This document shows positions 1 to 16,096 of a stretch of 17,829 nucleotides of DNA, one piece after another. The stretch lies in assembly GCA_949289625.1 (NCBI GenBank), contig CASEPH010000065.1, forward strand, positions 1 to 17,829, in the 5' to 3' direction. Made by a program: the position numbers and the translations under genes. Each line of letters begins with the position of its first letter. Position 1 is the stretch's first letter. Origin of the DNA: an uncultured Clostridia bacterium (lineage in GTDB: Bacteria; Bacillota_A; Clostridia; Oscillospirales; Oscillospiraceae). A model generated the notes under the pieces. The model ran no database searches. It had not been told where the DNA came from and saw only the letters and a list, made by a program, of their open reading frames with translations.

Positions 1-25
1 ACAAGCGGCATAACTGTTGTTTTGT

Positions 26-205
26 TTAGATGTATTGCACGGTAATCTTTTTCTTTCGTGCTTTTGTAAATTTGATAAGGACATCATCTACTGCGTCCGT
101 ATATCTACCTTGCGCTATGAGATCATTTTTGAGAGTAATAAGGGACTGTATGACCTGAGAGTATTCCTGCTCATCTAAATAAATATGGTAGTCTTTCTGT
201 TTCAT
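26..205 (-). CDS. Small mobile-element-associated hypothetical protein, 59 aa
   Basis: The protein starts MKQKDYHIYLDEQEYSQVIQ, contains the stretch AQGRYTDAVDDVLIK and ends in a basic tail (KARKKKITVQYI). The start is fixed by an AGGAGGT ribosome binding site (213-219) seven bases upstream of ATG, and a plausible promoter lies further up. From memory, short proteins with the AQGRYTDAVDDV stretch recur in integrative and conjugative elements of clostridia, normally annotated as hypothetical. The function is unknown to me. The charged helical pattern with a basic C-terminus could suit a small regulatory or nucleic-acid-binding protein, but no domain is recognisable. It lies on the element side of the guaA junction and supports reading that side as mobile DNA. 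Confidence 0.8.
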   Translation of the reverse strand: MKQKDYHIYLDEQEYSQVIQSLITLKNDLIAQGRYTDAVDDVLIKFTKARKKKITVQYI

Positions 206-229
206 CTGTCGTACCTCCTGCCTAGGCTT

Positions 230-258
230 ACTATATAAGATCGCAATTGACTTAACAA
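230..258 (-). promoter_or_regulatory. Putative sigma-A promoter of the 59-aa gene
   Basis: On the minus strand TTGTTA (253-258) and TATAGT (230-235) are separated by 17 bases. The pair lies between the terminator at 292-331 and the ribosome binding site at 213-219, so the small gene can be transcribed independently of guaA. This rests on sequence match only. Confidence 0.5.
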
Positions 259-291
259 GTATGCAAAAGTTTCCGAAAGTGTTATAAGACA

Positions 292-331
292 GACGAAAAA
301 AGGACTCTGACTTTTTTCGTCAGAGTCCTTT
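292..331 (-). terminator. Terminator with two overlapping, mutually exclusive hairpins
   Basis: A perfect 12-bp stem pairs AAAGGACTCTGA (299-310) with TCAGAGTCCTTT (320-331). On the minus strand it runs into TTTTTT, as expected for an intrinsic terminator ending transcription from guaA. The plus-strand exit (TTTCATTTT) is also T-rich, so it may work both ways. A second perfect 11-bp stem, GACGAAAAAAG (292-302) with CTTTTTTCGTC (311-321), shares bases with the first and cannot form at the same time. Confidence 0.75.
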
Positions 332-380
332 CATTTTCATTGTTCAGCTTTACCACAAAGCCACTTATAACTATTTCATC

Positions 381-428
381 TGTTGCAAAACTTTTTTGTG
401 CGTGATGTGTTGCAAAAGTGTTGCAAAA
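381..428. repeat. Three direct repeats of TGTTGCAAAA
   Basis: TGTTGCAAAA occurs at 381-390, 408-417 and 419-428, and a related TGCAAAAGT at 262-270. They lie 80-135 bases inside the proposed element from the guaA junction. Spaced short direct repeats near an element end are typical of arm-type binding sites for tyrosine integrases or excision factors. That role is inferred from position only. Confidence 0.6.
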
Positions 429-504
429 ACGAATCGACGATTCAAGCTATACCCGCAAACCCGCATAAATACTGGCTTTTTAAGCACATCTCAGCCGAGA
501 GTCA

Positions 505-516
505 TCACTCCCACTC
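505..516 (-). other. Candidate attachment site (att core) in the 3' end of guaA
   Basis: The last codons of the short guaA read GAG TGG GAG TGA on the minus strand. GAGTGGGA is the core I recall for elements entering guaA, with an 11-bp form GAGTGGGAATA in the Tn5801 family; here nine of those eleven bases match. The site keeps the final IEWE residues, so integration would not disrupt the protein. The match is seen, while the crossover point is inferred. Confidence 0.55.
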
Positions 517-1485
517 AATGGTCCCACAAGGCTTAGGTGTAAGATCATAGAGCACACGGTTCACACCCGGTACCTCTTTGGTGATACGATCTGTGATATG
601 CTGCAGCAGTGCAAAGGGCACATCCTCCACCGTCGCAGTCATGGCATCCACGGTATTGACCGCGCGAATGATAACGGGATACGCATAGGTCCGCGCACCA
701 TCCTTCACGCCGACAGAGCGGAAATCCGGCACAGCCGTAAAGTACTGCCACACCTTGCCTTCCAGGCCATTCTTGGCAAACTCCTCCCGCAGGATGGCGT
801 CGGACTCCCGCACCGCCTCCAGTCTGTCTCTGGTGATGGCACCCAGGCACCGCACGCCCAAGCCCGGTCCCGGGAAGGGCTGACGGTATACCATGCTGTC
901 CGGCAGGCTAAGAGCCTTACCTACCACACGCACCTCATCCTTGAACAGGAACTTCAGGGGCTCCACCAGGGTGAACTGCAGATCCTCCGGCAAGCCACCC
1001 ACGTTATGATGGGCTTTCACGCCGTCGCTCTCCAAAATATCCGGATAGATGGTCCCCTGGGCCAGAAATTCAATCCCGGACTGCTTTCTCGCTTCTTCCT
1101 CAAAGACCCGAATAAACTCGGCACCAATGATCTTGCGCTTTTTCTCAGGATCGCTGACACCCTCCAGTTTGCCCAAGAAGCGCTCCACTGCGTCAACATA
1201 GACAAGATTCGCATCCATCTGATGCCGGAATACGTCTACCACCTGTTCCGGTTCACCCTTACGCAAAAGGCCGTGATTGACATGGACGCACACCAGCTGC
1301 TTGCCGATGGCTTTGATCAGCAACGCCGCCACTACCGAGGAATCCACGCCGCCGGAAAGGGCCAAAAGCACCTTTTTATCTCCTACCTGCTGCTTGATCT
1401 CGTTTACCTGCTCTTGGATAAACGCCTCCGCCTGCTCTTTTGTGGCAATGCGGCACATATTCTCCGGACGCTTGTTGTTCTCCAT
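505..1485 (-). CDS. GMP synthase-like protein lacking the glutaminase domain (ATP-PPase plus dimerisation domain)
   Basis: This 326-aa protein aligns over nearly its whole length with the C-terminal two thirds of the full-length GuaA encoded just upstream. It keeps the PP-loop SGGVDSS (residues 44-50), the KRKIIGAEFIRVF stretch, [18 protein letters not shown] and the C-terminal IEWE. It has no class I amidotransferase domain; only about 35 residues precede the PP-loop domain. It should adenylate XMP, and would need free ammonia or a glutaminase supplied in trans, as in the two-subunit archaeal GMP synthase. The start is supported by AGGAGG seven bases before ATG. No promoter or terminator is evident in the 78-base gap after guaA, so co-transcription is likely. 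The gene's 3' end forms the putative att site. Confidence 0.9.
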   Translation of the reverse strand: MENNKRPENMCRIATKEQAEAFIQEQVNEIKQQVGDKKVLLALSGGVDSSVVAALLIKAIGKQLVCVHVNHGLLRKGEPEQVVDVFRHQMDANLVYVDAVERFLGKLEGVSDPEKKRKIIGAEFIRVFEEEARKQSGIEFLAQGTIYPDILESDGVKAHHNVGGLPEDLQFTLVEPLKFLFKDEVRVVGKALSLPDSMVYRQPFPGPGLGVRCLGAITRDRLEAVRESDAILREEFAKNGLEGKVWQYFTAVPDFRSVGVKDGARTYAYPVIIRAVNTVDAMTATVEDVPFALLQHITDRITKEVPGVNRVLYDLTPKPCGTIEWE

Positions 1486-1563
1486 AATATAGCCTCCTCA
1501 TTTTAGATCAATACTTGTTTTCACCTGTAGGCCAGGCAATCTTCCATCCTGTGACAAACAAAT

Positions 1564-3105
1564 TCAAAGCCATTCAATGGTCGCCGGGGGTTTGCTGGTG
1601 ATGTCGTAGACGATCCGGTTGATTCCCTTTACCTCGTTGACAATACGGACTGAAATTTTATCCAAAACATCATAGGGAATGCGGGCCCAGTCGGCGGTCA
1701 TAAAGTCGCTGGTGGTCACCGCGCGAAGGGCCAGCGTATAGTCATAGGTCCTTCCGTCCCCCATAACGCCCACAGACTGCACATTAGTCAGCACCGCAAA
1801 ATACTGGCTGATCTGTGTATCCAGCCCGGCGTTGGCGATTTCCTCCCGGTAAATGGCATCCGCATCCCGCAGGGTATCCGCCTTTTCCTTGGTAATGTCG
1901 CCAATGATCCGAATGGCCAGACCCGGTCCCGGGAAGGGCTGCCGCTGCACCAGATACTGGGGCAGTCCCAACTCTCGTCCGAGCTGCCGAACTTCATCCT
2001 TAAACAGCATCCGCAGGGGCTCGATGATCTCTTTAAAATCTACATAGTCTGGCAAGCCCCCCACGTTGTGGTGGCTTTTGATGACTGCGGCGTCCCCTGC
2101 GCCGGATTCGATCACGTCGGGATAGATGGTGCCCTGGACCAGATAGTCCACAGAGCCGATCTTCTTTCCCTCTTCCTCAAAGACCCGGATGAACTCCTCG
2201 CCGATGATCTTGCGTTTCTCTTCCGGATCCGTAACGCCGGAAAGCTTGGAGAGGAACCGCTGCTCCGCATCTACACGGACAAAGTTGATATCCCATTTGG
2301 AGAAGGCAGCCTCTACCTCATCGCCCTCGTTTTTCCGCATCAAGCCGTGATCCACGAACACGCAGGTGAGCTGATTTCCCACGGCTTCCGCCAGCAGCGC
2401 AGCAGCCACGGAGGAATCCACGCCACCGGATAGGGCCAGCAGAACCTTGCCGTCCCCCACCTTTTCCCGGATGGAAGCCACCGCTGTTTTGCAGTAGTCC
2501 TCCATGGTCCAGTCCCCGATGGCATGGCAGACCTCATAGAGGAAATTCCGGATCATTTTCACGCCGTTTTCCGTATGGTTGACCTCCGGGTGATATTGCA
2601 CCCCGTAGAATCCCCGGCTCTCATCACAGATGGCCGCAGTGGGACACATATCCGTATGGGCCACCAGAGAAAATCCGTCGGGAACCTTCGCCATATAGTC
2701 TCCATGGCTCATCCAGGACACCCCCTCTTCCGGCAGTCCCCGGAAGAGCTTACAATCGGTGTTGTAGTAGGTCTTGGTCTTACCGTATTCTCTGGCGGTA
2801 TCCTCCTGGGCTGCCGTTACCTGGCCCCCCAGGGTGTGGGCCATCAGCTGACAGCCATAGCAGATCCCCAGCACCGGTACCCCCAGTTCAAAAATCGCCG
2901 GATCGCAGTGGGGCGATTTCTCGTCATAGACACTGTTGGGACCACCGGTAAAGATTAGCCCTATGGGGTTCATCGCCCGGATCTCCTCCAGAGACGTGGT
3001 ATAGGGCTTGACCTCACAGTATACATTGCATTCCCGGACTCTGCGGGCGATCAGCTGATTATACTGACCGCCGAAATCCAGGACTAGGACCATCTGATGG
3101 TTCAT
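1564..3105 (-). CDS. guaA: GMP synthase (glutamine-hydrolysing), full length
   Basis: Converts XMP to GMP using ATP and glutamine, the last step of guanine nucleotide synthesis in the cytoplasm. At 513 aa it has the usual family length. The N-terminal class I GATase domain (about 1-195) shows the nucleophile in GICYGCQ (Cys82) and His172/Glu174 in QYHPE. The ATP-pyrophosphatase domain has the PP-loop SGGVDSS (226-232), followed by the dimerisation domain with [12 protein letters not shown] and a C-terminal SKPPATIEW. The last residue is Leu where the family nearly always has Glu (IEWE). AAAGGAG lies eight bases before the ATG. The upstream gap is filled by a terminator-like hairpin, so the promoter is unclear. 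A second GMP synthase gene without the GATase domain follows. Confidence 0.97.
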
Positions 3106-3123
3106 GCACTTTTCTCCTTTCCG

Positions 3124-3165
3124 AAAAACACGGAGCGAGAAGCCAAAAGGTTTCTCGCCGTGTTT
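3124..3165 (-). terminator. Hairpin with T-run after carB and before guaA
   Basis: AAACACGG (3126-3133) pairs with CCGTGTTT (3158-3165), and CGAGAA (3136-3141) with TTCTCG (3152-3157), extended by CC/GG at the top and interrupted by a two-base bulge. On the minus strand the stem exits into TTTTT. It starts four bases after the carB stop and ends 18 bases before the guaA ATG, so it may terminate carAB, attenuate guaA, or both. Confidence 0.75.
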
Positions 3166-3169
3166 ATAT

Positions 3170-6100
3170 TTATCGGTTGTTGATTTTTGTCACATCCACT
3201 GCCTGGAGCTCGCTGGCCCGTCCCATGGTTCTGGCCTGGATCACAGCCCGGGCCGTATCAATGGCGGTAATGACGGGAATGGAATGCTCTGTTGCCGCCC
3301 GGCGGATGGTAAAGCCGTCCTTGTTGTGTTTTCTGTCGTTGGCCGGCGTATTGATGACCATATCAAACATGCCGATCTCAATCATATCCAGGATGGAGGG
3401 GCTGCCCTCAGAAATCCGGTTGACCTTCTGGCAGCTCACGTCATGGCGGGTCAGAAAATCATAGGTGCCTGCGGTGGCATACAGGTGCATCCCCAAGTCC
3501 TCCATGCTTCTGGCAATAGGAAGGATCTCCGCCTTGTCGGCGTCCTTCACCGTTAAAAGGATATTGCTGTCCTTCTTGGGAATCTGCATACCGACGCCCT
3601 TGAAGGCCTTCAGCAGCGCCTGGTTGAAGTCCCGGTCAATGCCAAGCACTTCGCCGGTGGATTTCATCTCCGGCCCAAGGGAGGTATCCACATCTGTCAG
3701 CTTGGAGAAGGAGAACACAGGCATCTTCACCGCATAATAGGGCGACTCAGGATACAGTCCCGTGCCATAGCCCAGATCCCGCAGCTTCTCCCCCAGCATG
3801 ACCCGGGTAGCCAGCTCAATGATGGGTACACCGGTGACCTTGGTGATATAGGGAATGGTCCGGGAGGACCGGGGATTGACCTCGATCACATAGACCTTAT
3901 CGTTATAAATCACGAACTGGATGTTGACCAGTCCCACCACATGGAGGGCCGTGGCCAGCCGTTTGCTGTAATCCGCAATGATCTCCTGATGCCGCCGTTC
4001 GATCTTTACCGGCGGATACACGGAGATGGAGTCGCCGGAATGGATGCCGGCCCGTTCGATGTGCTCCATGATACCGGGGATGAGAATGTCCTCTCCATCA
4101 CAGACGGCGTCCACCTCCAGCTCCCGGCCCATGAGGTATTTGTCCACCAGAATGGGATGCTCCTGGGAATACATATTGATGATCGCCATATAGTCGTCGA
4201 TGTCCTTGTCATTGTAGGCAATCTGCATGCCCTGGCCACCCAGCACATAGGAGGGCCGCACCAGCACCGGATAACCGATCCGATTGGCGATTTCCTTACC
4301 GTCCTCAGCGGTGAAGCAGGTGCCAGCCTCCGCCTTTTCAATGTGGGTCTGCTTCAGAATCTCGTCGAATTTCTCCCGATCCTCCGCCGCGTCCACACCT
4401 TCGGCGTCGGTGCCCAGAATCCGGACGCCCATATTGGTCAGATCCTGGGTCAGCTTGATAGCGGTCTGTCCGCCAAACTGCACCACAGCGCCCCAGGGCT
4501 TTTCCAGTTCCACAATGTTCTGGACATCTTCCGGGGTCAAAGGCTCGAAATACAGCTTGTCCGCCACGTCAAAGTCCGTGGACACCGTCTCCGGGTTATT
4601 GTTGACAATGATGGTGTAGCAACCCTGTTTTTTCAGGCTCCACACGGAGTGGACGGAGCAGAAGTCAAATTCAATGCCCTGTCCAATGCGGATAGGACCG
4701 GAGCCCAGCACCAGCACCTTTTTGGGTACATCCGTTCCATCGGCCTCATTTTCATCGTCATAGGTGGAGTAGTAATAGGGTGTGGCAGCGTCAAACTCCG
4801 CTGCGCAAGTATCCACCATCTTGAAGGAGGCATGGATTCCCAGCTGATCCCGCAGGGCCTTGATGTCAAAGTGGGTCTTGCCGCACAGCTCCCCAATGAA
4901 GGCATCGGTAAAGCCCATCTCCTTGGCCTGCCGCAGCAGGGCATAGTCCAAGGGCTCGCTGGCAATACGCCGTTCCATCTCCACAATGTCCCGGAACCGA
5001 TCCAGGAACCAGATGTCCACCTTGGTGATCCGGTTGATCTCCTCTGGGGAAATTCCCCGGCGCAGGGCCTCCGCCATCACGAACAGCCGCTGATCGTCAA
5101 TGAGTTCCAGACGAGCATGGATCTCCGCGTCGGACAGGGATTTCAGGCTGTCCAGCTGCAGGGAATTCACATGCTGCTCCAGGGACCGCACCGCCTTCAT
5201 GAGGGCACCCTCGAAGCTGTTGTCGATGGCCATGACCTCGCCGGTGGCCTTCATCTGGGTACCCAGCTTCCGGCTGGCATGGACAAACTTATCAAAGGGC
5301 CACTTGGGGATCTTCACCACACAGTAGTCCAGGGCAGGCTCAAAGCAAGCACAGGTTTTGCCGGTGACGCTGTTTTTAATTTCATCCAGCGTATATCCCA
5401 GGGCGATCTTTGCCGCCACCTTAGCGATGGGATAGCCGGTGGCCTTAGAGGCCAGGGCGGAAGAACGGCTCACACGAGGATTGACCTCGATGACCGCATA
5501 CTCAAAGCTGTCGGGTTTTAAGGCAAACTGAACGTTACAGCCGCCCTCAATCTCCAGAGCGGAGATGATGTCCAGCGCAGCTGTCCGGAGCATCTGATAC
5601 TCCTTGTCCGCCAGCGTCTGGGAAGGGGCCACCACGATGGAGTCGCCGGTATGGACGCCCACCGGATCGATATTCTCCATATTACAGACGGTGATCACAT
5701 TACCGGCGCCATCCCGGATCACCTCATATTCGATCTCCTTCCAGCCGGAGATGCACCGCTCGATGAGGACCTGTCCCACCCGGGACAGCCGAATGCCGTT
5801 GGAGGCGATCTCGTGGAGGTCCTTCATGGTGTAGGCGATACCGCCGCCGGTGCCACCCAAGGTATAGGCAGGCCGAACGATCACCGGCAGGCCAATTTCC
5901 TTGGTAAAGGCCATGGCGTCCTCTACGCTCTCCACAACCTTGGAGGTGACGCAGGGCTGGCCGATGGCCTCCATGGTATCCTTAAAGCCCTGCCGATCCT
6001 CCGCCTTTCGGATGGATTCCGCACTGGTACCCAGCAGACGCACCCCGTAACGCTCCAGGGTGCCGTCCTCTGCCAGAGCCATGGCCAGATTCAAGCCGGT

Positions 6101-6379
6101 CTGTCCGCCCAGGGTAGGCAGAATGGAGTCCGGCCGTTCCATTTCGATGATCTGGGTCACGGAAGCGGTGTTCAGGGGCTCGATATAGACATGGTCCGCA
6201 ATATCCTTGTCGGTCATAATGGTGGCCGGGTTGGAGTTCACCAGGACCACCTCGATGCCCTCCTCCCGGAGGCTGCGGCAGGCCTGGGTGCCGGCATAGT
6301 CAAATTCCGCCGCCTGGCCGATAATGATGGGGCCGGAGCCCAGCACCAGGACCTTCTTGATGCTTTCATTCTTAGGCAT
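3170..6379 (-). CDS. carB: Carbamoyl phosphate synthase, large subunit
   Basis: Makes carbamoyl phosphate from bicarbonate, ATP and ammonia channelled from CarA, feeding pyrimidine and arginine synthesis. At 1069 aa it is full length. The start [17 protein letters not shown] is the typical N-terminus; an in-frame extension upstream has no family similarity and lies inside carA. The protein shows the expected internal duplication: [20 protein letters not shown] opens the first ATP-grasp half and [20 protein letters not shown] the second, near residue 560. Each half has its ATP-grasp glycine-rich segment (YTLGGTGGG and YVLGGQGM). The C-terminal MGS-like allosteric domain follows (about 935-1069). 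The first eight bases overlap the end of carA, implying translational coupling. No missing residue was noticed. Confidence 0.97.
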
Positions 6380-7451
6380 GCTTCTTCGCCTCCATCTTCT
6401 CAATAAACTGGTCAAACAGATAGCTGGTATCCCGGGGACCTGGGGAGGCCTCGGGATGGAACTGCACCGTAAACACATGGCCGTTCTTGTACCGCAGTCC
6501 CTCCACGGTGCCGTCGTTCACATTGATATGACTGATCTCCGCCACAGCCGGATCCACGCTCTCAGCCTTCACCACATAGCCATGGTTTTGGGAGGTGATG
6601 TACACTCTGCCGGCCGCCACATCCCGGACAGGATGGTTGGCGCCCCGATGACCGTATTTCAGTTTTTCCGTCACCGCACCGGTGGCCAGGGCCATGATCT
6701 GGTGACCAAGGCACACCGCAAAAATCACCAAATCCGAATCATAGAGCTTCCGCACCTCGGAAATGATCTGGAGGTTGTCCGCCGGATCTCCGGGGCCGTT
6801 GCTGAGCATCACTCCGTCAAAGCCCCCTTCCAGGATCACCTGGGCCGGGGTATGGGCCGGAAATACGGTCACATCGCAGCCCCGATTGTGGAGGCAGCGA
6901 ATCATATTCTCCTTGACGCCCAGATCCAGCAGGGCCACCCTGGGACCGCTGCCGGGATAGATCTGCATCTGAGAACGGGTGGTTTTTTCCACCGTGCCCT
7001 GGACCCGGTAGGCATGGATCAGTTTCAGCTTGGCCGCCACATCTGGATTCTCCTCCACGGTAATCATGCCGTTCATGGTGCCTTGATCCCGCAGCATCCG
7101 GGTGATGGCACGGGTATCCACCCCGTGAATGCCGGTGATATTGTGGGCCTTTAAATAATCGTCCAGCGTACCCTCATTGCGGAAATTGCTTCCTCTTGGG
7201 CTCAAACGCCGGACGATCATAGCAGCAGCCCAGGGATTCCTGGACTCATCATCTTCAGAATTGACTCCGTAATTGCCGATCAGGGGATACGTCATCACAA
7301 CGCCCTGTCCCGCATAGGATGGGTCCGTCAAAATTTCCTGATAACCAACCATGGAGGTGTTGAATACCATCTCGCAGATACAATCTGCGGTGGCACCCAT
7401 GCTCTCGCCATGGAAGACCACACCGTTCTCCAAAATCAAAGTTGCTTTCAT
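6372..7451 (-). CDS. carA: Carbamoyl phosphate synthase, small (glutaminase) subunit
   Basis: Hydrolyses glutamine and passes ammonia to CarB. The 359-aa protein has the N-terminal CPSase small-chain domain (about 1-150, beginning [16 protein letters not shown]) and a class I GATase domain. The nucleophile is Cys247 in FAVCLGHQ, with His332/Glu334 in FHPEASPGP, so the catalytic triad is complete. GGAGAAAGG lies about twelve bases before the ATG, a rather long spacing, but no better in-frame start is seen. carA is first in the operon, with a promoter about 70 bases upstream, and its stop overlaps the carB start by eight bases. Confidence 0.97.
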
Positions 7452-7522
7452 TTGGCCACGCTACCTTTCTCCAATTTTCAGGCACACGCCCAGAGGCCCG
7501 CACTGCCTCCATCTTACCTGAT

Positions 7523-7551
7523 ATGATACCCGATTTTTACAAAAAAGGCAA
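7523..7551 (-). promoter_or_regulatory. Putative sigma-A promoter of carAB
   Basis: On the minus strand TTGCCT (7546-7551) and TATCAT (7523-7528) are exactly 17 bases apart. They lie about 70 bases upstream of the carA ATG. The resulting leader of roughly 65 bases holds no clear attenuator or riboswitch. Confidence 0.6.
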
Positions 7552-7620
7552 GGGGAGATTTTGCATGAATGCATGCGTCTTTCCCATATATTTGTTGTGC
7601 AGAATCTTTTGGGCACAGAA

Positions 7621-7654
7621 TATGGGGAACCGGCCCGTGGTCCGATTCCCCATA
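7621..7654 (-). terminator. Hairpin ending the tagA-to-U32 gene run
   Basis: TATGGGGAA (7621-7629) pairs with TTCCCCATA (7646-7654), and CGG/CCG extends the stem inward past one mismatch. It begins seven bases after the stop of the U32 gene. The downstream minus-strand sequence is only weakly T-rich, so it may serve as a terminator or as a transcript-stabilising 3' stem. Confidence 0.55.
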
Positions 7655-7660
7655 ATGTGT

Positions 7661-8884
7661 TTATTTCCTGGTTTTCTCATCCACCTGACGCCGCAAAATC
7701 GCATATTCCGGTGCAGCCACCGGCAAACGCATCCGGATCTCCATTTCGGGATGGGGACAGTACTCAATGGTCTCCCCTTCCCCGTTGGTCATATCCCCCA
7801 CTGTAAAGGAAAGGGGCTTTTGTCCGGGAATCAGCAGCTCCAGGGTATCCCCCTTCCAGAACCGGCCTCGCTGGGTCAGCACTGCATTGCCCTCCTGGTC
7901 GCAGGATACCACATAGGCCACCACATCCCAATCCCGGATATAGCGGGCGTCGTCATAGAACTGCTCCGGCTGTCCAAAATAGAACCCCGTGCAGTAGTGC
8001 CGGTGGCTGATCTTGTCCACCTCATCCCGCCAAACGGCCTCCAGAGGCACGCCGGCGGCAGCGGCGTCGATACCGTGCCGATAGGCATTGGTGACACAGG
8101 CCGCATAATAGGCGGATTTCGCCCGGCCTTCGATTTTGAAGGAGTTGATCCCTGCTTCTATCAGCTCCGGGATATGGTCGATCATGCACATATCCTTGGC
8201 ATTCATGATGTAGGTACCGCCGTCGTCCTCCTCAATGGGGAAATACTCCCCGGGACGCTTTTCTTCCATCAGGGCGTATTTCCACCGGCAGGGCTGGGCA
8301 CAGGCCCCATGGTTGGCATCCCGTCCCGCCAGATAGTTACTCAGCAGGCATCGGCCGGAAAAGCTCACGCACATGGCGCCGTGGACAAAGGCCTCCAGTT
8401 CCAGGTCCTCAGGAATGTTGTCCCGGATCTCCCGGATCTCGGAAAGACGCAGCTCCCTGGCCAGCACCACACGCTTGGCCCCCAGGTCATACCAGGCTTT
8501 GGCCGTATCCGCGGACACCACGCCCATCTGGGTGCTGATGTGCCGTTCCACCTGGGGTGCATACCGGGCAGCGGTCTGAAACACCCCCAGATCCCCCAGG
8601 ATAAAGGCGTCCACACCCACATCTTGGCAAAACTCCAGAAATGGGATCATCTGGCGGATCTCCCCGGTTCGGGCCAGGATGTTTGCGGTGACGTTGACTT
8701 TCACGCCGTTGGCATGGCAGAATCGCACAGCCTCCGCCAGCTCCGTGTCGCTGAAATTGCCGCACTTTGCCCGCATGCCGAAGGCTTTTCCCGCCAGATA
8801 CACCGCATCGGCCCCAAACCGCACCGCCATTTGCAGCCGTTCCGGATCTCCTGCCGGGGAGAGCAGCTCCGGTTTAACCGTCAT
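7661..8884 (-). CDS. Peptidase U32-family protein, TrhP-like tRNA uridine hydroxylation protein
   Basis: The 407-aa protein starts KPELLSPAGDPERLQMAV and carries the U32 signature around residues 164-181 (EAFVHGAMCVSFSGRCLLS). Cys172, Cys179, Cys195 and Cys199 form a cluster suited to an iron-sulfur site. Although named for a collagenase, this family is known for prephenate-dependent 5-hydroxyuridine formation at tRNA position 34 (TrhP/YegQ in E. coli, YrrN and YrrO in Bacillus). The position directly after mltG matches the Bacillus yrrL-yrrM-yrrN-yrrO region, except that the methyltransferase gene yrrM is absent. The start is set by AGGAG seven bases before ATG and overlaps the mltG end by 11 bases; a 57-residue in-frame extension is a shadow of mltG. 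Which of the Bacillus paralogues it matches is not clear. Confidence 0.88.
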   Translation of the reverse strand: MTVKPELLSPAGDPERLQMAVRFGADAVYLAGKAFGMRAKCGNFSDTELAEAVRFCHANGVKVNVTANILARTGEIRQMIPFLEFCQDVGVDAFILGDLGVFQTAARYAPQVERHISTQMGVVSADTAKAWYDLGAKRVVLARELRLSEIREIRDNIPEDLELEAFVHGAMCVSFSGRCLLSNYLAGRDANHGACAQPCRWKYALMEEKRPGEYFPIEEDDGGTYIMNAKDMCMIDHIPELIEAGINSFKIEGRAKSAYYAACVTNAYRHGIDAAAAGVPLEAVWRDEVDKISHRHYCTGFYFGQPEQFYDDARYIRDWDVVAYVVSCDQEGNAVLTQRGRFWKGDTLELLIPGQKPLSFTVGDMTNGEGETIEYCPHPEMEIRMRLPVAAPEYAILRRQVDEKTRK

Positions 8885-10418
8885 CGTCGGTCTCCTCTCC
8901 CGCTTCAATGGGCACCTGTTCGTAGGGCGCATCTCCCTCTGTATCCTCGTTCCCAGGCCCAGCCGGGGCTTCAATGTCGGGACCTTCGTCCGTTTCCGCA
9001 GCAGGATCCACCTCAGCCGGATCGTCGGCCTCCACCACATCGGTCTCCTCCGCATCGTCGGACTCCGGCTCTACGCCGTCCAGGAAATCCTGCTGATCCA
9101 TATAGGTCTCAAAGAACCGGTGGGTACCGTCGCTGTCCAGCGCATAGAAGAAGTAGTCCGACTCCTCGGGATAGATGGCCGCCATAATGCTGGCCAGGCC
9201 CGGGTTTGCAATGGGTCCAGGCGGCAGGCCCTTGTACTTGTAGGTATTGTAGGGGTTGTCCACCGCCAAATCGTTGGCCGTCAACTCTGTTTTATGCTCA
9301 CCCAGGGCATATTCCACCGTTGCGTCGATCTGCAAAAGCTCGTGGACATGGGTGGTCAAACGGTTGTAGATGACCGAGGAAATCAGCGACCGTTCCTGAT
9401 CGGAACCGGCTTCCTTCTCGATGAGAGATGCCACCGTCAGAACCTTATACACATCCATCATGGAATTTTCAATTTCCTCTTCGGTGAAGGTTCCCTCCTC
9501 CTCCATGCTCTGCCGGATGAAGGCATTGAGCTCATCAATGGCGGCAAGCATTTCGTCGGACATCTTTCCGGAGAGGTTGCTCAGGAATTTATTGATGACA
9601 CGCTCCGGGTCATCGTCCACATAGAACTCATAGGTATCGGGGAATAGGTAGCCCTCCAGCCGATTGGGCTCGCCATAGGGCAGATCCGCCAAAAAATCGT
9701 AATCAAACTCATAATTGGCCGCAGTGTCCTCCAACTCCTCCAGGGTGCAGACCCCATTCTCCGCTAAAATCTCAAAGATCTGATCGCAGGTATAGCCCTC
9801 GGGGAAGGTCAGCGTCACCGTCTTACGGCTCTCGCTGGAGGAAGCCAGGCCGTAGACCAGGGCATGATAGTCAAACTGCTGGTTCAGCTCAAAGGTACCG
9901 GTGCCGATTTTTTCCTCCGCGTTGCTGAATTTCCCATAGAGGACGAACAGGAACTTATAGTTGATGAGGCCGTGATCCTTGAGATTCTGGGCCACATCCT
10001 CCAGGGTATCCCCCTGGTTGATGGTGATGGTAACTACGTTGTCGGGCTTGGTCAGGGCCAGCACATCGTCTGCGGCAAACCACATCACCACCGCCAGCAC
10101 CACAGAGGCCACCAGCACACTGAGCATATACGCCACGGTGCGTTTTAGGGATTTCGGTCGTGGCCCGCCCTGGTCCTCCTCGTCATAGTAATCTTCGTAG
10201 TCCTCGTCATAATACTCGCCATCGTAGTCGTCGTCATAGACCACGTCCTCGTCATAGCCGTCGTATTCGCCCGCATCCTCGTAGGCCATGTCTTCGTCAT
10301 AGCCCATATCGTCGCCGTCGTATTCCATTCCGTCGGCGTTGTAATCAAGGCTGTCGTTGTCCACGGACATCGGCTCCTCCATAGGCTCCTCCGCCTGTCC
10401 GCGCTTCTTTTTAAACAT
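8874..10418 (-). CDS. mltG: Endolytic murein transglycosylase MltG with acidic extensions
   Basis: MltG (YceG/YrrL) cleaves nascent glycan strands at the membrane and limits peptidoglycan chain length. This 514-aa protein has a short basic start (MFKKKRGQ), a cytoplasmic Asp/Tyr/Glu-rich tract (about residues 20-82), one membrane segment (about 95-117), a LysM-like region (about 127-180) and the catalytic domain. The catalytic Glu is probably Glu334 in SLIEKEAG, and the hallmark YKYKGLPPGPIANPG follows (about 394-407). An extracytoplasmic acidic Pro/Ala-rich tail (about 450-514) ends it. Typical members have about 340-380 residues, so both extensions are additions. The ATG at 10418 follows GGAGG by seven bases; a GTG six codons earlier would put that ribosome binding site inside the gene. 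It overlaps the upstream gene by eight bases. Confidence 0.93.
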   Translation of the reverse strand: MFKKKRGQAEEPMEEPMSVDNDSLDYNADGMEYDGDDMGYDEDMAYEDAGEYDGYDEDVVYDDDYDGEYYDEDYEDYYDEEDQGGPRPKSLKRTVAYMLSVLVASVVLAVVMWFAADDVLALTKPDNVVTITINQGDTLEDVAQNLKDHGLINYKFLFVLYGKFSNAEEKIGTGTFELNQQFDYHALVYGLASSSESRKTVTLTFPEGYTCDQIFEILAENGVCTLEELEDTAANYEFDYDFLADLPYGEPNRLEGYLFPDTYEFYVDDDPERVINKFLSNLSGKMSDEMLAAIDELNAFIRQSMEEEGTFTEEEIENSMMDVYKVLTVASLIEKEAGSDQERSLISSVIYNRLTTHVHELLQIDATVEYALGEHKTELTANDLAVDNPYNTYKYKGLPPGPIANPGLASIMAAIYPEESDYFFYALDSDGTHRFFETYMDQQDFLDGVEPESDDAEETDVVEADDPAEVDPAAETDEGPDIEAPAGPGNEDTEGDAPYEQVPIEAGEETDDDG

Positions 10419-10971
10419 GCCTCGCCCTCCGTTCACACTGAATAATTGTTTGATCCGTTACCACGGCGTCCATTGTTTTGTCGTGCCCCTCCATGGGCAC
10501 TGCCTCCAGGAGATTGCCATGATAGCATATCCCCACGGACTTTCCCGGATATTCCGCCAAAAAGCGGTCATAGTATCCTTTGCCCCGGCCCAATCTGCCG
10601 CCCAAAGGATCAAAGGCCATTCCGGGCACCAAGACCAGGTCAATTTCCTCCGGCATTACCTTCGGGGCATCCTCTTGGGGTTCTGAGATTCCCATGGTTC
10701 CGGGGACCAGTTCCTTCAAATCTGAAATCAGCCGTGCCGTCATCGTACCGTCCGGCTCGCATCGCGGCAGCACCAATCGTTTCCCCTGCTCCAGGGTCTC
10801 CCGCAGCACCTGTCCCAGATTTGCTTCTCCCGGCATAGCCGCATAGGCCATCACCGTTTTCGCCTGATGAAACCAGGGATGACCCAGCACATGCCGGCAC
10901 AGCCGATGGTCGTCGCCCGGCCGAGGATTTTGGCGGAGCCGCTGGCGCAGCTGACGCTTATCTTCTCTCAT
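10411..10971 (-). CDS. 5-formyltetrahydrofolate cyclo-ligase
   Basis: Converts 5-formyl-THF to 5,10-methenyl-THF with ATP, returning folate to the one-carbon pool. The 186-aa length fits the family. It begins MREDKRQLRQRLRQ with the usual basic helix. The signature VPGMAFDPLGGRLGRGKGYY (about 115-134), followed by a DR pair, contains the conserved nucleotide and folate site residues. The chosen ATG overlaps the end of the DJ-1-like gene by 14 bases; only a distant GAGGTGG is present, so expression is probably coupled. A longer in-frame reading adds 63 residues with no family similarity. The family is named MTHFS or YgfA/FAU. Confidence 0.93.
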   Translation of the reverse strand: MREDKRQLRQRLRQNPRPGDDHRLCRHVLGHPWFHQAKTVMAYAAMPGEANLGQVLRETLEQGKRLVLPRCEPDGTMTARLISDLKELVPGTMGISEPQEDAPKVMPEEIDLVLVPGMAFDPLGGRLGRGKGYYDRFLAEYPGKSVGICYHGNLLEAVPMEGHDKTMDAVVTDQTIIQCERRARHV

Positions 10972-11506
10972 ACACCATATATCCGGCCACCTCATCCGGG
11001 GTATAGCTGCCCTGGAAAACACCGGCAAGTTGAAGTCCAAATTCAATGGCTGCCCCAGGGGCCCGTCCGGTGATGATCTTTCCGTCCACCACCGTCTCCC
11101 GTTCCGGATGGACGATGGCCTGACCCATACCGCTTTCACAGCCGGGATAGCAAACGGCATTCCGTCCGTCCAGATAGCCCCGTTTGCCCAGGATCATGGG
11201 TGCTGCGCAAATGGCAGCCACATAGCGGTCCTGTTTCAGGGCGTATTCCACTGCGGCCATGGCGCCTTCGCTCTCCTCAATGGAGGTAACGCCGCCCATA
11301 CCGCCAGGCAGCACGATCATGTCCATGTGTGCCAGGTCCATCTCCTCCAAGGTGATGTCCGCCTGGATGGAAATGCCGTGAGCACCTTCCACCAGCTTGC
11401 CGCCGATCCCCACATACTGCACCGGGATCTGTGCCCGCCGAAGCACATCGCCGGGGGCGATGGCCTCCGTCTCTTCAAAGCCTTTTCCCAACAGAATATA
11501 TACCAT
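10958..11506 (-). CDS. DJ-1/PfpI family protein
   Basis: The 182-aa protein has the DJ-1/PfpI fold signals: an N-terminal VYILLGKGFEETEAIAPGDV with the conserved acidic residue, a MIVLPGGMGG segment (about 63-72), and a nucleophile elbow AAICAAPMIL with Cys100. Relatives include human DJ-1 and the YajL/ThiJ group, variously linked to protein or glyoxal damage repair and stress response; the substrate here cannot be told from sequence. AGGAG lies eight bases before the ATG, and an adjacent GTG one codon earlier is also possible. The ATG shares its first base with the stop of the kinase gene (TGATG), indicating coupled translation. Confidence 0.92.
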   Translation of the reverse strand: MVYILLGKGFEETEAIAPGDVLRRAQIPVQYVGIGGKLVEGAHGISIQADITLEEMDLAHMDMIVLPGGMGGVTSIEESEGAMAAVEYALKQDRYVAAICAAPMILGKRGYLDGRNAVCYPGCESGMGQAIVHPERETVVDGKIITGRAPGAAIEFGLQLAGVFQGSYTPDEVAGYMVYERR

Positions 11507-12168
11507 CACAATATCTCCTTTACCGCCTGATAGACATCCTCGTGAATCTCCTCAATGGAGCGCATTTTTCCGTCCCTGGTACAGGCGATCCTGTGCCAGC
11601 CAAACCGGTCCGCAGCCTCTGCCGCTGCGATTCTGCACTGCCGCAGGTAGCTGATATCCTTCTCGTGGATGTCCGCTTCCGTATTGGTCAGAAGCTCCCG
11701 CCGGTGCATGTTGATCTCCGTCAGGTCCACCGGCACATCCAGATAGAGCACCAGATCCGGAGCAGGAAGCCCCAGAAGCCCATATTCAAAATCAAAGAGC
11801 CAATCCAAAAACGCCTTCCGTTCCTCTGGCGGAAGCTTGGAACCCTGATGCACCGCGTTAGAGGTGGTGTACCGGTCCGAAAGCACCAGGCCGCCTGCTT
11901 CATAATAGCCGCCCCAATCCTGTTTATAGGAGGCGTACCGGTCCACCGCAAAGAAGGTGGACGCCGCATAGGCGTTGACGTCCGACGGCTTATCGCCAAA
12001 GTCCCCGTTCAAATACATCTGGATCAGGGCCGAGGAGCGCTCCGAATATCGAGGAAACTCCACCTTCCGGCAATCCACATGCTCCCGCACCAGCCGCTCC
12101 ATCAGCGCCGCGCACTGGGTTGCTTTTCCGGAACCATCCGTTCCCTCCAGTACGATCAGTTTCCCCAT
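11506..12168 (-). CDS. Thymidylate kinase-like nucleoside monophosphate kinase
   Basis: A P-loop kinase of 220 aa, starting GKLIVLEGTDGSGKATQ. The LSDRYTTSNAVHQG stretch (about 96-109) matches the DRY/NMP-binding motif of dTMP kinases, and PAPDLVLYLDVP is the typical following strand. The likely reaction is dTMP to dTDP in DNA precursor synthesis. The Walker A lysine is followed by Ala rather than the usual Ser/Thr (GSGKAT), which is worth noting because that side chain normally helps bind magnesium; the adjacent Thr may substitute. The gene starts four bases after the glycosyltransferase stop with AAAGGA as ribosome binding site. It is not next to holB, the common tmk neighbour, so it might be a second or variant kinase. 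Confidence 0.87.
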   Translation of the reverse strand: MGKLIVLEGTDGSGKATQCAALMERLVREHVDCRKVEFPRYSERSSALIQMYLNGDFGDKPSDVNAYAASTFFAVDRYASYKQDWGGYYEAGGLVLSDRYTTSNAVHQGSKLPPEERKAFLDWLFDFEYGLLGLPAPDLVLYLDVPVDLTEINMHRRELLTNTEADIHEKDISYLRQCRIAAAEAADRFGWHRIACTRDGKMRSIEEIHEDVYQAVKEIL

Positions 12169-12172
12169 GGTA

Positions 12173-12892
12173 TCATCCTTTCATCCGCTGCAAAATGACC
12201 TTTCCCACAAACTTGGGCAGGCGCAGCATACGGCCAAATCGTTTTGGTTCCTGGATCAGCCGGTATAGCCACTCCAGATTGCAGCGGATCATCCACCGGG
12301 GCGCACGTTTCACATTGCCGGCAAAGCCGTCCAGGCTGCCGCCCAAACCGGCCATCATGCCCACCTGGAGTTCCTGTCGGTGCCCAAACATAAAGTATTC
12401 CTGCTTGGGCGCACCCAGACAGACAAAGAGCACATCCGGTTTCTTTGCATTGATCTCCGCCACCACCGGCCCATCCTCCTGGAAGTAGCCGTCATGGGTG
12501 CCGCAGATCCGCAGGCCGGGAAACCGGGCTTTCAGCTTTTCCGCAGCGGCTTCTGCCACGCCGGGCTTGCTGCCCAGAAAGAAAAAGGTTTTCTCCGTTT
12601 TCGACAGCCGTTCCATCAACGCCGCGGCAAAATCGATCCCCGCCACCTTCTGTTTCAGGGGCGTTCCCAGGATCTTCGCCCCCAGCACCACACCGGCACC
12701 GTCCGGCAGCACCAGGTCCGCCTGGGACAGCAGCTGCCGCAGTTCCGAATTCTGCATGGCCTCGTAGACGATCTCCGCATTGGGCGTCACACAGCAGGCA
12801 GCGCCCGGAGCATCCATGAGCCGAATCGCTTGATCCAGCGCTTCTTCCATGGTTACATTGTCAAAGGGGACGCCCATTACCTCCACACGCAT
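12173..12892 (-). CDS. WecG/TagA/CpsF family glycosyltransferase
   Basis: The 239-aa protein carries the family landmarks: VEVMGVPFDNVTMEEAL at the start, TPNAE (about 36-40), LPDGAGVV (about 62-69) with the probable catalytic Asp64, FFLGSKPGVAEAA, and VCLGAPKQE (about 157-165). The C-terminal basic helix is the membrane-association appendage seen in TagA. Family members transfer N-acetylmannosamine to lipid-linked N-acetylglucosamine (wall teichoic acid linkage) or make related surface glycans; the product here is not determined. The ATG at 12892 follows AGGAG. Two earlier in-frame starts are rejected because they fall at or upstream of the likely transcription start. It is first in a six-gene run. 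Confidence 0.93.
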   Translation of the reverse strand: MRVEVMGVPFDNVTMEEALDQAIRLMDAPGAACCVTPNAEIVYEAMQNSELRQLLSQADLVLPDGAGVVLGAKILGTPLKQKVAGIDFAAALMERLSKTEKTFFFLGSKPGVAEAAAEKLKARFPGLRICGTHDGYFQEDGPVVAEINAKKPDVLFVCLGAPKQEYFMFGHRQELQVGMMAGLGGSLDGFAGNVKRAPRWMIRCNLEWLYRLIQEPKRFGRMLRLPKFVGKVILQRMKG

Positions 12893-12935
12893 TCCTGTAC
12901 CCACTCCTGACGCAAAAATTCTCATAGGTCTGTCT

Positions 12936-12964
12936 ATTTTAGCACAGTTTCTTCCCATTGTCTA
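12936..12964 (-). promoter_or_regulatory. Sigma-A promoter of the tagA-to-U32 operon
   Basis: On the minus strand TAGACA (12959-12964), a 17-base spacer and TAAAAT (12936-12941), preceded by TGC, give a near-consensus extended promoter. Transcription would start near 12929, about 37 bases before the chosen tagA ATG. No further promoter is evident down to 7661. Confidence 0.75.
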
Positions 12965-12996
12965 CGAAAATTTCCCTGCTTTGGGAACGAGAAAGG

Positions 12997-13030
12997 CCGG
13001 AGTCCAAAGGGTTTCCCCTTGGGACTCCGG
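12997..13030 (-). terminator. Terminator of the transporter operon
   Basis: CCGGAGTCC (12997-13005) pairs with GGACTCCGG (13022-13030). After one mismatch, AAGG (13007-13010) pairs with CCTT (13017-13020). The stem starts eight bases after the ATPase stop and is followed on the minus strand by a moderately pyrimidine-rich CCTTTCTCG. It also separates this operon from the next promoter. Confidence 0.75.
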
Positions 13031-13037
13031 CGCAATA

Positions 13038-13787
13038 TCACTTGACTTCATGGAGGAACCGGCTCAGGAATTCCTGGGTCCGGGGCTGACTGGGATGCTC
13101 AAACACCGACTCGGGATCTCCCTCCTCACAGATGACCCCTTCGGACATAAAGACCACATGGTTGCTCACGTCCCGAGCAAAGGCCATCTCATGGGTCACC
13201 ACGATCATGGTCATGCCTTCCCTTGCCAGGTCCCGCATGACTGCCAGCACCTCACCCACCATTTCCGGGTCCAGAGCCGAAGTAGGCTCGTCAAAGAGCA
13301 GCAGCTCCGGTTCCATGGCCAGCGCCCGGGCAATGGCCACCCGCTGCTTCTGTCCGCCGGACAGCTGCCGGGGCCGGGCATTGATATAAGGTGCCATACC
13401 CACCTTTTCCAGATACTTCATGGCGTTCTCCCGAGCTGCTTCCTTTTTGCGGTGAAGGACCTTGGTCTGTCCCACCATACAGTTTTCCAGCACGGTCATA
13501 TTGTCGAAGAGGTTGAAGGACTGGAACACCATCCCCACTTTGGTCCGGTATTCCCAGGCCTTGACTCCCTTGCCGTTGATCTTCTGATCGTGGAAACAGA
13601 TCTCGCCGCTGGTGGGAGTCTCCAGCAGATTGATGCACCGCAGCAGCGTGGATTTACCGGAGCCGGAAGCGCCGATGATACAAGTCACGTCTCCCTGGGA
13701 TACGGTAAAATCAATATCCTTGAGCACCGCGTTTGCTCCGAAGGATTTGGACAGATGCTTCACCTGAAGAATCACATTGCCTGCCAT
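13038..13787 (-). CDS. Amino acid ABC transporter ATP-binding protein, probably for lysine
   Basis: A 249-aa ATPase of the polar amino acid (GlnQ/HisP) type. Walker A is GASGSGKST (39-47), the Q-loop Gln is at 89, the signature is LSGGQ (142-146), Walker B is LLLFDEP (162-168) and the H-loop His is at 199, so all catalytic elements are present. It would power import through the permease encoded one base upstream. The substrate cannot be read from the ATPase; lysine is inferred from the riboswitch heading the operon. A purine-rich AAAGGGGA precedes the ATG. It is the last gene of the operon and is followed by a strong hairpin. Confidence 0.95.
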
Positions 13788-13788
13788 A

Positions 13789-14637
13789 TCACCGTCCCCT
13801 TTCTATGGTCTGTTCGTGTTCCGGGCTGCGCTCATCAAAATTGCTGCCCTTGCCAGGATAATTCAGCATGCCTGCCGTAGGAGCCAGCTGATCCGTCGTG
13901 GCAAGAGAATAGCTGGAACTGCCAGCCAGCACTTTCTCCCAGAGCCGGAGCAGGAAGGAGGCGATCAGAGTCATGCAGAGATACCCCACCATCTCAATGG
14001 TAGCCGAGGGGAAATAAAGATATGTAGCGCCCACCACAGCCCGGTGTGTGGCGAAGAAGTCCGTAAAGGAGATGATGAACATGACGGAGGTATCCTTCAC
14101 GTTGATAATAAAGTTGTTTCCGATCTGGGGCAGGATGTTCCGCAGAGCCTGGGGCAGGATCACATACAGCATAGTTTTCACATGATTCATGCCGATGGCC
14201 TTGGCCCCCTCGGTCTGTCCCGGGTCAATGGACAAAATGCCGCCCCGGACCGTTTCCGCCATATAGGCGCCCGTATTGATGGACACCACCAGAATGGCTG
14301 CCAGCCACACATTGGAGAACTGCACCGCGTTATTGGTGAAATAGGGCAGTCCGTAGTAGACAAACACCGCCTGGAGCACCATAGGGGTCCCGCGGAACAC
14401 CTCCACATAGATCCGGACCACCACCCGGATCACCGCCAGGAAAAACCGCTTTACGGGGTGATCGGTCTTGGTATGGGGAATGGTCTGGAGCACGCCGCAG
14501 ATAAAGCCGATGATGCAGCCAATGACCGTAGCCACCAGTGCAAGCACCAGCGTATTTTTAATACCTGAGAAATAAGAGCCGCTGTATTTGGTCCATAGCT
14601 TTGCAATGTCCTGCCCCAGTTGTAGGATTCGATCCAA
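13789..14637 (-). CDS. Amino acid ABC transporter permease, probably for lysine
   Basis: A 282-aa inner-membrane permease of the HisM/GlnP type. Hydrophobic segments begin with [20 protein letters not shown], followed by [20 protein letters not shown], and the EAA loop that contacts the ATPase is [20 protein letters not shown] with the downstream [17 protein letters not shown] hydrophilic tail of about 45 residues follows the last membrane segment. The start appears to be TTG at 14637: AAGGGAG lies nine bases before it, an in-frame TAA occurs nine codons upstream, and no other suitable start precedes the first membrane segment. Two hairpins separate it from the binding protein gene. Confidence 0.93.
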
Positions 14638-14664
14638 TTGGAAGCACTCCCTTCTCTTTTCTTA

Positions 14665-14710
14665 GGCCCCAAAGCAGGGGCCCAGGCGAGGGGCACTATC
14701 CCCTCGCCTG
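14665..14710 (-). promoter_or_regulatory. Two adjacent hairpins between binding protein and permease genes
   Basis: A perfect 11-bp stem CAGGCGAGGGG/CCCCTCGCCTG (14683-14693 with 14700-14710) is followed on the minus strand by a smaller GGCCCC/GGGGCC stem (14665-14670 with 14677-14682). No T-run follows. Such stems between binding protein and permease genes commonly stabilise the upstream mRNA or reduce read-through, giving excess binding protein. That role is inference. Confidence 0.6.
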
Positions 14711-14726
14711 CTATACAATGTTTGGA

Positions 14727-15668
14727 TTATTCGCCCACAGGCTGCACAGCGATTGCTTCGTTCATGAGATCGTTAAAATCGTCCGCAGTCATAGTGCCCA
14801 GCACGCTGTTGATGGCGTCCACCAGGGCGGTGTTGCCCTTCTGGACAGAGATGCCGATATTGATCTCGCCCTCATCCACGGTAAAACCGTCCTCGGAATC
14901 GCTGAAATCCAGGATCTTCATGTCAGGATAGGCGGCTACAGCACCCATGGCAGTGGGCATATCCGTGCAGATGAAGTCCACCTGATCGGTCTCCAGGGCC
15001 ATCAGCATGGCAGGGGCGGTCTCTGCTGCGGTCTGGATCTGAGCTCCCTCGATCTGGGGCAGCATGGAGTCATACCAGATGGTGGCGATCTGGGCGGTGC
15101 AGGTACCGCCGGAGAGATCGGAAAGCCCTGCCGCATTGGCATAGGGGCCATCTGCCTTGGTCACGCAGACAATGGAGGCATAGAAGTAGGGACCGGCAAA
15201 GTCCACCTGCTCCATCCGTTCCGCCGTCATGGACTGACCGGCAATCACCGCGTCATAGGTACCGGTCTGAACGCCGGGCACCAGGGAATCCCAGTCGGTG
15301 CGGATGACTTCCAGTTCCCAGCCGTTGGCTTCGCAGATCTTCTTCGCGATCATCACGTCGTAGCCGTTGGCATAGTCGGTGGAATCCTTGATGGGCACAG
15401 CGCCGTTGCTGTCGTCGGTCTGGGTCCAGTTATAGGGGGCGTAGGCGCACTCCATCGCGATAGTGAGCACGCCGTCCTCCAAACCGGGAATGGCAGCGCT
15501 GTCACCGGCAGAAGCCGCCTCGGTGGCTGCCGCCTCAGTGGTAGCCGTTTCCGCAGACTCAGCCGAAGTTGCTGTTTCCTCGGACGCCACGGACGTCTCT
15601 TCCGTACCGCAGGCCGTCATACCAAGCAGCATGGCCGCAGCCAAAAGCAAAGCAAAAATTTTCTTCAT
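14727..15668 (-). CDS. Amino acid ABC transporter substrate-binding lipoprotein, probably lysine-binding
   Basis: A 313-aa family 3 solute-binding protein. The signal peptide KKIFALLLAAAMLLGMTAC ends in a lipobox with lipidated Cys20, so it is anchored on the outer face of the membrane. A low-complexity Ala/Thr/Ser/Glu linker (about 22-58) leads to the binding domain, opening with VLTIAMECAYAPYNW and continuing with NGYDVMIAKKICEA and YDAVIAGQSMTAERMEQVDF, all typical of polar amino acid binders. The ATG at 15668 follows GGAGG by eight bases; an upstream GTG would include that site. It is the first gene after the lysine riboswitch, which is the basis for assigning lysine; the pocket residues alone do not prove it. 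Confidence 0.93.
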   Translation of the reverse strand: MKKIFALLLAAAMLLGMTACGTEETSVASEETATSAESAETATTEAAATEAASAGDSAAIPGLEDGVLTIAMECAYAPYNWTQTDDSNGAVPIKDSTDYANGYDVMIAKKICEANGWELEVIRTDWDSLVPGVQTGTYDAVIAGQSMTAERMEQVDFAGPYFYASIVCVTKADGPYANAAGLSDLSGGTCTAQIATIWYDSMLPQIEGAQIQTAAETAPAMLMALETDQVDFICTDMPTAMGAVAAYPDMKILDFSDSEDGFTVDEGEINIGISVQKGNTALVDAINSVLGTMTADDFNDLMNEAIAVQPVGE

Positions 15669-15690
15669 GATCGTTTCCTCCACTTTTTAC

Positions 15691-15732
15691 AAAATAAATC
15701 AGCCATGGACAACTGGAGTCATCCATGGCTGA
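15691..15732 (-). terminator. Riboswitch expression-platform terminator hairpin
   Basis: TCAGCCATGGA (15699-15709) pairs perfectly with TCCATGGCTGA (15722-15732) around a 12-base loop. On the minus strand it exits into TTTATTTT. It lies between the lysine aptamer and the binding-protein ribosome binding site, where a lysine-induced premature terminator is expected. Confidence 0.85.
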
Positions 15733-15768
15733 ATACACGACTAAATCTTTAGACAGTATCATGACCGG

Positions 15769-15930
15769 CCGATAGCGCTCCACAGTTTGTGGCAGTCCGG
15801 CGGATATTTTCCGACGGCCCAGGCAACCATGGCACAGGCATACCACAGCCCTTCGGCGAAACTCCCTTTCTCCCGGACGGATGCCTGTCCTTGCCCTGGG
15901 ATACTGATGGGCTTCGCGCCTCTATTCGTA
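15769..15930 (-). ncRNA. Lysine riboswitch (L box) aptamer
   Basis: The minus-strand leader shows the conserved L-box blocks in order: AGAGGCGCG (15915-15923), an AGTA loop element, GAGAAAGGGAG, TCGCCGAAG (15851-15859), CTGGGCCGTC, GGACTGCC, a P5 hairpin (15780-15792) and the closing GGAGCGCTATC (15771-15781). This order and spacing match the lysC/asd lysine riboswitches of Bacillus and Thermotoga as I recall them. P1 forms between the ATAG near the 5' end and CTAT at the 3' end. Binding of lysine would favour the downstream terminator hairpin, shutting off the ABC transporter. This is the main evidence that the transporter carries lysine. Confidence 0.92.
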
Positions 15931-15945
15931 GCTTGATCTGATAGT

Positions 15946-15975
15946 ATCTTATCACGCAGTTCCTCGAGCTGTCAA
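15946..15975 (-). promoter_or_regulatory. Sigma-A promoter of the riboswitch-transporter operon
   Basis: A consensus TTGACA (15970-15975) and TAAGAT (15946-15951) are separated by 18 bases on the minus strand. Transcription would start just before the lysine aptamer, giving a leader of about 270 bases before the binding-protein ATG. The remaining 15976-16061 holds nothing I recognise. Confidence 0.8.
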
Positions 15976-16061
15976 GCCTTTTGGGGATTTTTGTATAAAC
16001 ACTACAGAACGCATTTCATTTCTCTCCAAAATCCGGCAAAATCCACAGCCATGTTAATAAT

Positions 16062-16089: not shown

Positions 16090-16096
16090 TTCACCA

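Follow-up and report, generated by a model that had tools for sequence, protein, structure and literature searches.

A GMP-synthase paralogue next to canonical guaA

The stretch of DNA analysed here (hereafter, the window) comprises 17,829 nt from an uncultured Clostridia bacterium (assembly GCA_949289625.1, contig CASEPH010000065.1, positions 1 to 17,829, forward strand). Its minus strand includes two genes that we take, from their sequences, to be carA and carB, ahead of a canonical guaA and a shorter GMP-synthase paralogue, here termed guaA' (Table 1). The guaA product comprises GATase, PP-loop and C-terminal domains; guaA' contains the latter two only, without a match to the class-I GATase family PF00117, and the two proteins are 52% identical over their shared part. 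The PP-loop SGGVDS and the GMP_synt_C domain of guaA' correspond to the ATP-pyrophosphatase part of GMP synthase, and the protein also matches the solved GMP synthase subunits B 6jp9 and 2dpl; it is predicted to use ammonia. It passes the cut-off of the NCBIfam model NF000848 for glutamine-hydrolysing enzymes (464.6 vs 400), which draws attention to a widespread GMP synthase that lacks the glutaminase and is named glutamine-hydrolysing by database models. Elsewhere in the window, a cysteine-rich 314-aa ORF (16097-17041) had no Pfam family.

Table 1. Features of the window at the two GMP-synthase genes and the adjoining element end.
Feature	Position	Strand	Basis
Very probable end of an integrated mobile element	1..504	.	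Ends in G108, G715 and G575; the window stops inside the element
59-aa ORF	26..205	-	Same place in three related ends (92% G715, 84% G575, 81% G627)
Intrinsic-terminator-like hairpin, 13-bp perfect stem	299..331	.	Inverted repeat and folding
Third, imperfect repeat copy	380..390	-	Repeat search, alignment
Two exact 11-nt direct repeats, TTTTGCAACAC	407..428	-	Repeat search, period-11 test, alignment
Conserved motif of element ends, AAAAAGCCAGTATTTATGCGGGTTTGCGG	453..481	-	Comparison of ends
att core GAGTGGGAGTGA, last codons and stop of guaA'	505..516	-	GARTGGGA at readable guaA' ends and element ends
guaA', 326-aa GMP-synthase paralogue without GATase, probable integration target	505..1485	-	Domain search
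Canonical guaA, 513 aa with GATase; 3' end GAATGGCTTTGA without core	1564..3105	-	Domain search, end comparison

In the window, guaA-type DNA stops at GAGTGGGAGTGA (516-505, minus strand), where GAGTGGGA (516-509, minus strand) lies in the last codons, GAG TGG GAG TGA, of the ORF 1485-505, and we infer that this core is the crossover site. The GC content falls here from 59.0% (501-1000) to 37.8% (1-500). The original prediction, made from the sequence alone, had pointed to this motif, to an abrupt AT-rich shift and to a 59-aa gene and repeats nearby, all of which were recovered. It had also named the junction gene guaA; this was right with regard to a GMP-synthase gene, but the gene concerned is not the ordinary guaA, being instead the GATase-less paralogue that adjoins an intact guaA. 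Since guaA itself ends in GAATGGCTTTGA, within this pair the GAGTGGGA core is offered by guaA' only. Where guaA lacks the core, as in the window, guaA' may remain as a landing site, which would spare the main enzyme.

Among the best 80 of at least 590 guaA' loci, GARTGGGA was present at all 79 guaA' ends with a stop in the contig, 59 of them being GAGTGGGA. It was also found in 19 of the 26 full guaA genes of the same loci, the core being lost in 7. In the family genomes, core loss was seen in 4 of 30 full guaA genes (2 of 9 with a second GMP-synthase match and 2 of 21 without one); as these counts are too few, we do not claim that guaA' relaxes the guaA site.

In a tree of 81 rows, 45 guaA' proteins formed one group (100/100) and 32 full guaA proteins another. 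The four intermediate proteins, of which three were read at full length (429-435 aa), branched first, on the guaA' side under midpoint rooting; in the two that come from Bacteroides and Parabacteroides records, the match to the 190-position GATase model covers positions 1-76 only. These sequences suggest that the glutaminase may have been lost stepwise. The paralogue series thus runs from a full GATase through half a GATase (429-435 aa; L095:18085-19392, L145:1541-2830) to none (326 aa; window 505-1485), the intermediates of L095 and L096 being annotated as glutamine-hydrolysing. When 25 genomes were searched with the full-length protein, 8 yielded no full-length guaA (one of the eight has fragments), an absence that is uncertain because the assemblies are mostly drafts. 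Judged by titles and abstract starts, no description of guaA' as a GATase-less or second guaA, nor of its use as a target, was recognised in the literature. Separately, three IMG/VR contigs (L091-L093) encode a guaA'-like protein (82%, 80% and 73% identity) and may be misassigned chromosomal DNA, and an unannotated guaA-like stretch (L097:5072-6040; 58.5% identity) adjoins cfr(D) on an Enterococcus faecium plasmid.

Organisation of the element end

The window contains neither an integrase nor a relaxase nor a second core. GTGTTGCAAAA occupies 407-417 and 418-428, and these repeats are probable arm-type integrase binding sites. The hairpin folds with -22.7 kcal/mol (z -5.95), and its stem is retained in genomes G575 and G627 despite base changes; folding of the motif at 453-481 was no better than that of shuffled sequences (z -0.52). 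In an alignment of eight ends, near-constant spacing was kept by the core, by a short motif and by TTTTGCAACA, which is present three times (twice at period 11). A version of the end motif, either GTATTTATGCGGGTTTGCGG itself or a near variant, likewise lies next to tRNA-like sequences (L136, L151, L152, L154; L139, L142, tRNA by eye), and the motif may therefore mark the ends of elements that use different targets.

The 59-aa ORF has matches to 520 proteins, and the 120 listed among these are all without a Pfam domain. The longest contig found to encode the window's own copy of the ORF measures 17829 bases, so the window is probably an entire contig. Relatives occur in 29 of the 300 family genomes, with identities of at most 56%. 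A search of 391 class genomes gave a match in 37, and the surroundings of the four best were compared. More distant relatives sit in other surroundings, and the ORF is not tied to the guaA integration site. In L083, a relative directly precedes a TnpV-looking frame, the Pfam TnpV match itself belonging to the similar L160 protein. In viral contigs, 39 stretches matched the pattern and none was upheld as a relative.

The same end in other genomes

We searched 300 genomes of one family with the 504 nt, and 29 of them had a match at E <= 0.001; among the matches listed, most correspond to the short motif approximately 24-52 nt past the stop. In G108, the first 86 nt are 97% identical and stand directly behind a full-length guaA that ends in the same 12 nt and matches the window guaA' at 55%. 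Full guaA also precedes the end in G575 (72.8% over 493 nt), G177 (88% over 113 nt) and G213 (72% over 146 nt), and guaA' does so in G145 (74% over 160 nt). The end in G715 is 94.3% identical over 489 nt, its contig ending 8 nt short of the junction. In G627 (71% over 469 nt) and G272 (76% over 72 nt), no guaA was found ahead of the core that precedes the end, and these two are read as putative element-element junctions. The match in G477 (66% over 173 nt) falls within the ORF region only. We consider the junction real because the element DNA is alike across hosts whose target genes differ. No DNA match to window 1-504 was obtained in plasmid records or in phage records.

Element-like ends were also counted by a period-11 test, which asks for at least 7 exact nt at period 11 within 40-125 nt past the stop, stretches further downstream serving as controls; 7 of 80 guaA' loci and 3 of 30 guaA loci were excluded for having no stop or fewer than 125 nt beyond it. 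The test was passed by 18 of 73 guaA' genes, drawn from the best 80 of at least 590 loci (controls, 1/207), and by 15 of 27 full guaA genes (controls, 0/78). Under a stricter test (10/11 positions), the numbers were 10/73 for guaA', from the same best 80 of at least 590, and 6/27 for guaA (controls, 0/70 and 0/26, respectively); the window itself matches at 11/11 positions. The period-11 repeat is more than chance. Neither sample is a survey, the guaA' loci being the best 80 of at least 590 and the 30 full guaA loci the best matches to the window guaA among 150 genomes; given this, and given that full guaA is struck as well as guaA', no target preference is claimed. Within the guaA' loci, 1 of 26 full guaA genes had the repeat, a count that misses pairs split by a long insertion.

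Elements, modules and second cores beyond the end

In G575, cores at 23172 (after full guaA) and 84484 delimit a 61.3-kb element. It carries the 59-aa ORF, a ParB-like gene, a MobA/VirD2-like relaxase (PF03432), an N6/N4 DNA methylase, a VirD4 of the CD1115 family and a VirB4-like ATPase of the CD1110 family (both by NCBIfam), and, at its far end, a tyrosine integrase (PF00589) and a NikA-like protein just ahead of the second core. The integrase showed a weak match (E 1.3e-6) to the solved structure 6emy, which we take to be Tn1549 Int.

Second cores were present in G575, G004, G008, G012, G013 and G014. Six genomes had been selected because their ends looked element-like, and five of them had one on the same strand downstream of guaA', with core-to-core distances of 10.4, 19.9, 15.2, 12.3 and 14.7 kb; none was detected within approximately 99 kb of guaA' in G005. 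Across 50 guaA' loci, a second same-strand core within 10 kb (beyond the first 300 nt) was seen once; as a control, the same 50 stretches, each of up to 10 kb, were read on the opposite strand, and no core was found there. Upstream of guaA', a same-strand core occurred in 13 of 50 loci, and these are taken as putative full guaA ends. Of 50 loci that offer 3 kb or more downstream of guaA', 9 had integrase matches in that stretch, vs 1 of 70 loci on the upstream side. L072 has a Mob_Pre relaxase downstream of guaA', and in G213 the integrase behind full guaA is adjoined by a NikA-like gene.

Shorter modules were observed as well. In G715, approximately 1.1 kb before the next core contains the 59-aa ORF and a NikA-type gene only (by likeness to G575 and G213), and in G627, with the same end, the next core follows at 4.7 kb. 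Rows of cores (1585, 2989 and 6203 in L160; 1556 and 3424 in L159) suggest that several modules have accreted, a process that the available part of one source describes for elements of this kind (PMC5704250). The tandem modules of L159:1556-3424 and L160:1585-6203 lie behind guaA' or guaA, one of them with a NUDIX-domain protein; between the cores of L160, no integrase was seen by eye.

Nature of the integrated element

We regard it as very probable that window 1-504 is the junction of an integrated element, intact or not. The element behind guaA' is most likely conjugative, or a deletion derivative of a conjugative one. A tyrosine integrase would have recombined the att site of the element with GAGTGGGA in the last codons of guaA', an event that left guaA' with its reading frame. 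The element continues to the left past the window edge, with its integrase probably at the far end, as in G575; by analogy, the window's own element would also have transfer genes and a second att. That a conjugative element or island begins here, as originally predicted, is supported by the sharp core junction, by the second cores and by the integrase and relaxase of G575; the search proposed for integrase, relaxase and second core, run on relatives, detected all of them in G575.

Within the integrated-element reading, it is possible, though not what we favor, that the window holds a remnant, that is, an att-flanked deletion derivative (dICE/CIME) without integrase or transfer genes of its own. 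The closest end found, that of G715, belongs to a module of about 1.1 kb, G627 has the same end on its 4.7-kb module, and short inter-core modules exist in L159 and L160; against this, the 61.3-kb G575 element has the same end organisation. Given short modules on one side and the G575 element on the other, the window end may belong to an intact ICE or to a remnant.

It is unlikely that the window holds the end of a prophage or of an integrative mobilizable element instead of an ICE. The 10-20 kb core-to-core spans behind guaA' in five relatives would suit such a reading, as would the Mob_Pre relaxase of L072 and the NikA-like gene beside the integrase of G213, but the end with the 59-aa ORF matches the conjugative element of G575 over nearly its whole length, and neither window 1-504 in phage records nor the ORF in viral contigs found a confirmed counterpart. 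A reading without any element, in which the AT-rich DNA is ordinary intergenic sequence holding a small host gene, is left some room by a visible stretch of only 504 nt but is hardly tenable, being contradicted by closely similar DNA that starts at the core behind differing guaA genes elsewhere.

Comparison with known elements

Transfer genes of the CD1110 and CD1115 families are, as we assume, grouped with C. difficile CTn and Tn1549-like ICEs. The G575 element resembles these in its CD1115-family VirD4 and CD1110-family VirB4, but it differs in integration site, and its Int is only distantly like Tn1549 Int.

Site-specific integration at guaA 3' ends, which the original prediction had invoked, is established in the available parts of the sources for several systems. 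Tn5801-like genomic islands (25 kb, Tn916 family, tet(M), 11-bp flanking direct repeats) share the guaA 3' end as integration site (PMC4844618); by their descriptions they differ from our case in that the related G575 element has CD1110/CD1115-type ATPases and the window target is guaA'. GIsul2 integrates at GAGTGGGA in the guaA 3' end, with several att copies in a row and a tyrosine integrase (PMC9376610; table in PMC5704250), features similar to those described here, whereas its hosts are gamma-proteobacteria and its other genes differ. ICE_SmiB6_guaA of streptococci, with a Tn916-type conjugation module, is likewise an ICE specific for the guaA 3' end, and the available part of its source mentions no guaA paralogue (PMC4701971). 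ATE-1 and others are listed with the same site (table in PMC5704250), and guaA is named near a mobile element with cfr(B) in a figure legend (PMC12955701).

In the window, too, the junction lies at GAGTGGGA in the last codons, and the gene, guaA', is intact. Elements that integrate site-specifically at guaA 3' ends are known; what is new is the paralogue guaA' as a target, full guaA being struck too, so that a known integration hotspot is extended to a second GMP-synthase gene. In literature on guaA as a hot spot, or on guaA together with Tn1549 and Ruminococcaceae, guaA' as a target was not recognised, judging by titles and abstract starts.

guaA' as a possible mobile cassette

In tandem loci, guaA' is flanked by two direct cores, one at the guaA end and one at its own, so that guaA-specific integrases could excise guaA' and place it downstream of guaA in new hosts. 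Each new host would then gain an extra landing site. That guaA' is itself a small mobile cassette seems to us improbable.

The pattern that bears most directly on it comes from the genus of G016 (Mailhella; 19 genomes, 14 with full guaA). In G016, G720 and G730, guaA' follows guaA after approximately 40 nt, and in G732, G733 and G734, guaA is directly followed by a terminator resembling the one that comes after guaA' in the first group; past the core, G016 and G734 are nearly letter-for-letter alike. This precise presence or absence at the core could mean that guaA' also moves, and the guaA' of these Desulfovibrionaceae nests among Clostridia copies in the tree. GC-rich terminators of the Mailhella form are common enough for caution, and an identical picture would arise from ordinary transfer followed by slippage deletion between two similar gene ends. 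Different sequences lie downstream of the remaining full guaA genes in this genus that have no guaA' behind them: by eye, a tatB-like frame comes next in four, other DNA in G731, G735 and G728, and the G724 locus is truncated by its contig end. In the 450 nt upstream of guaA', a core was present at 9 of 12 tandem loci (the end of guaA itself), at none of 14 with guaA further away and at 1 of 53 with no full guaA found nearby (L038); as upstream cores away from guaA are this rare, frequent insertion of guaA' there is unsupported.

In the genus of G739, two single-copy genomes have a terminator like that after guaA' in some tandem kin, and other kin have a terminator between both genes too, a picture less clean than that of Mailhella. 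In the genus of G742, single-copy genomes often have element-like ends at guaA. As a further observation by eye, in G728, which belongs to the genus of G016 (L234-L255), guaA' lies between IMP-dehydrogenase-like and tatB-like frames, whereas four relatives have full guaA ahead of the tatB-like frame.
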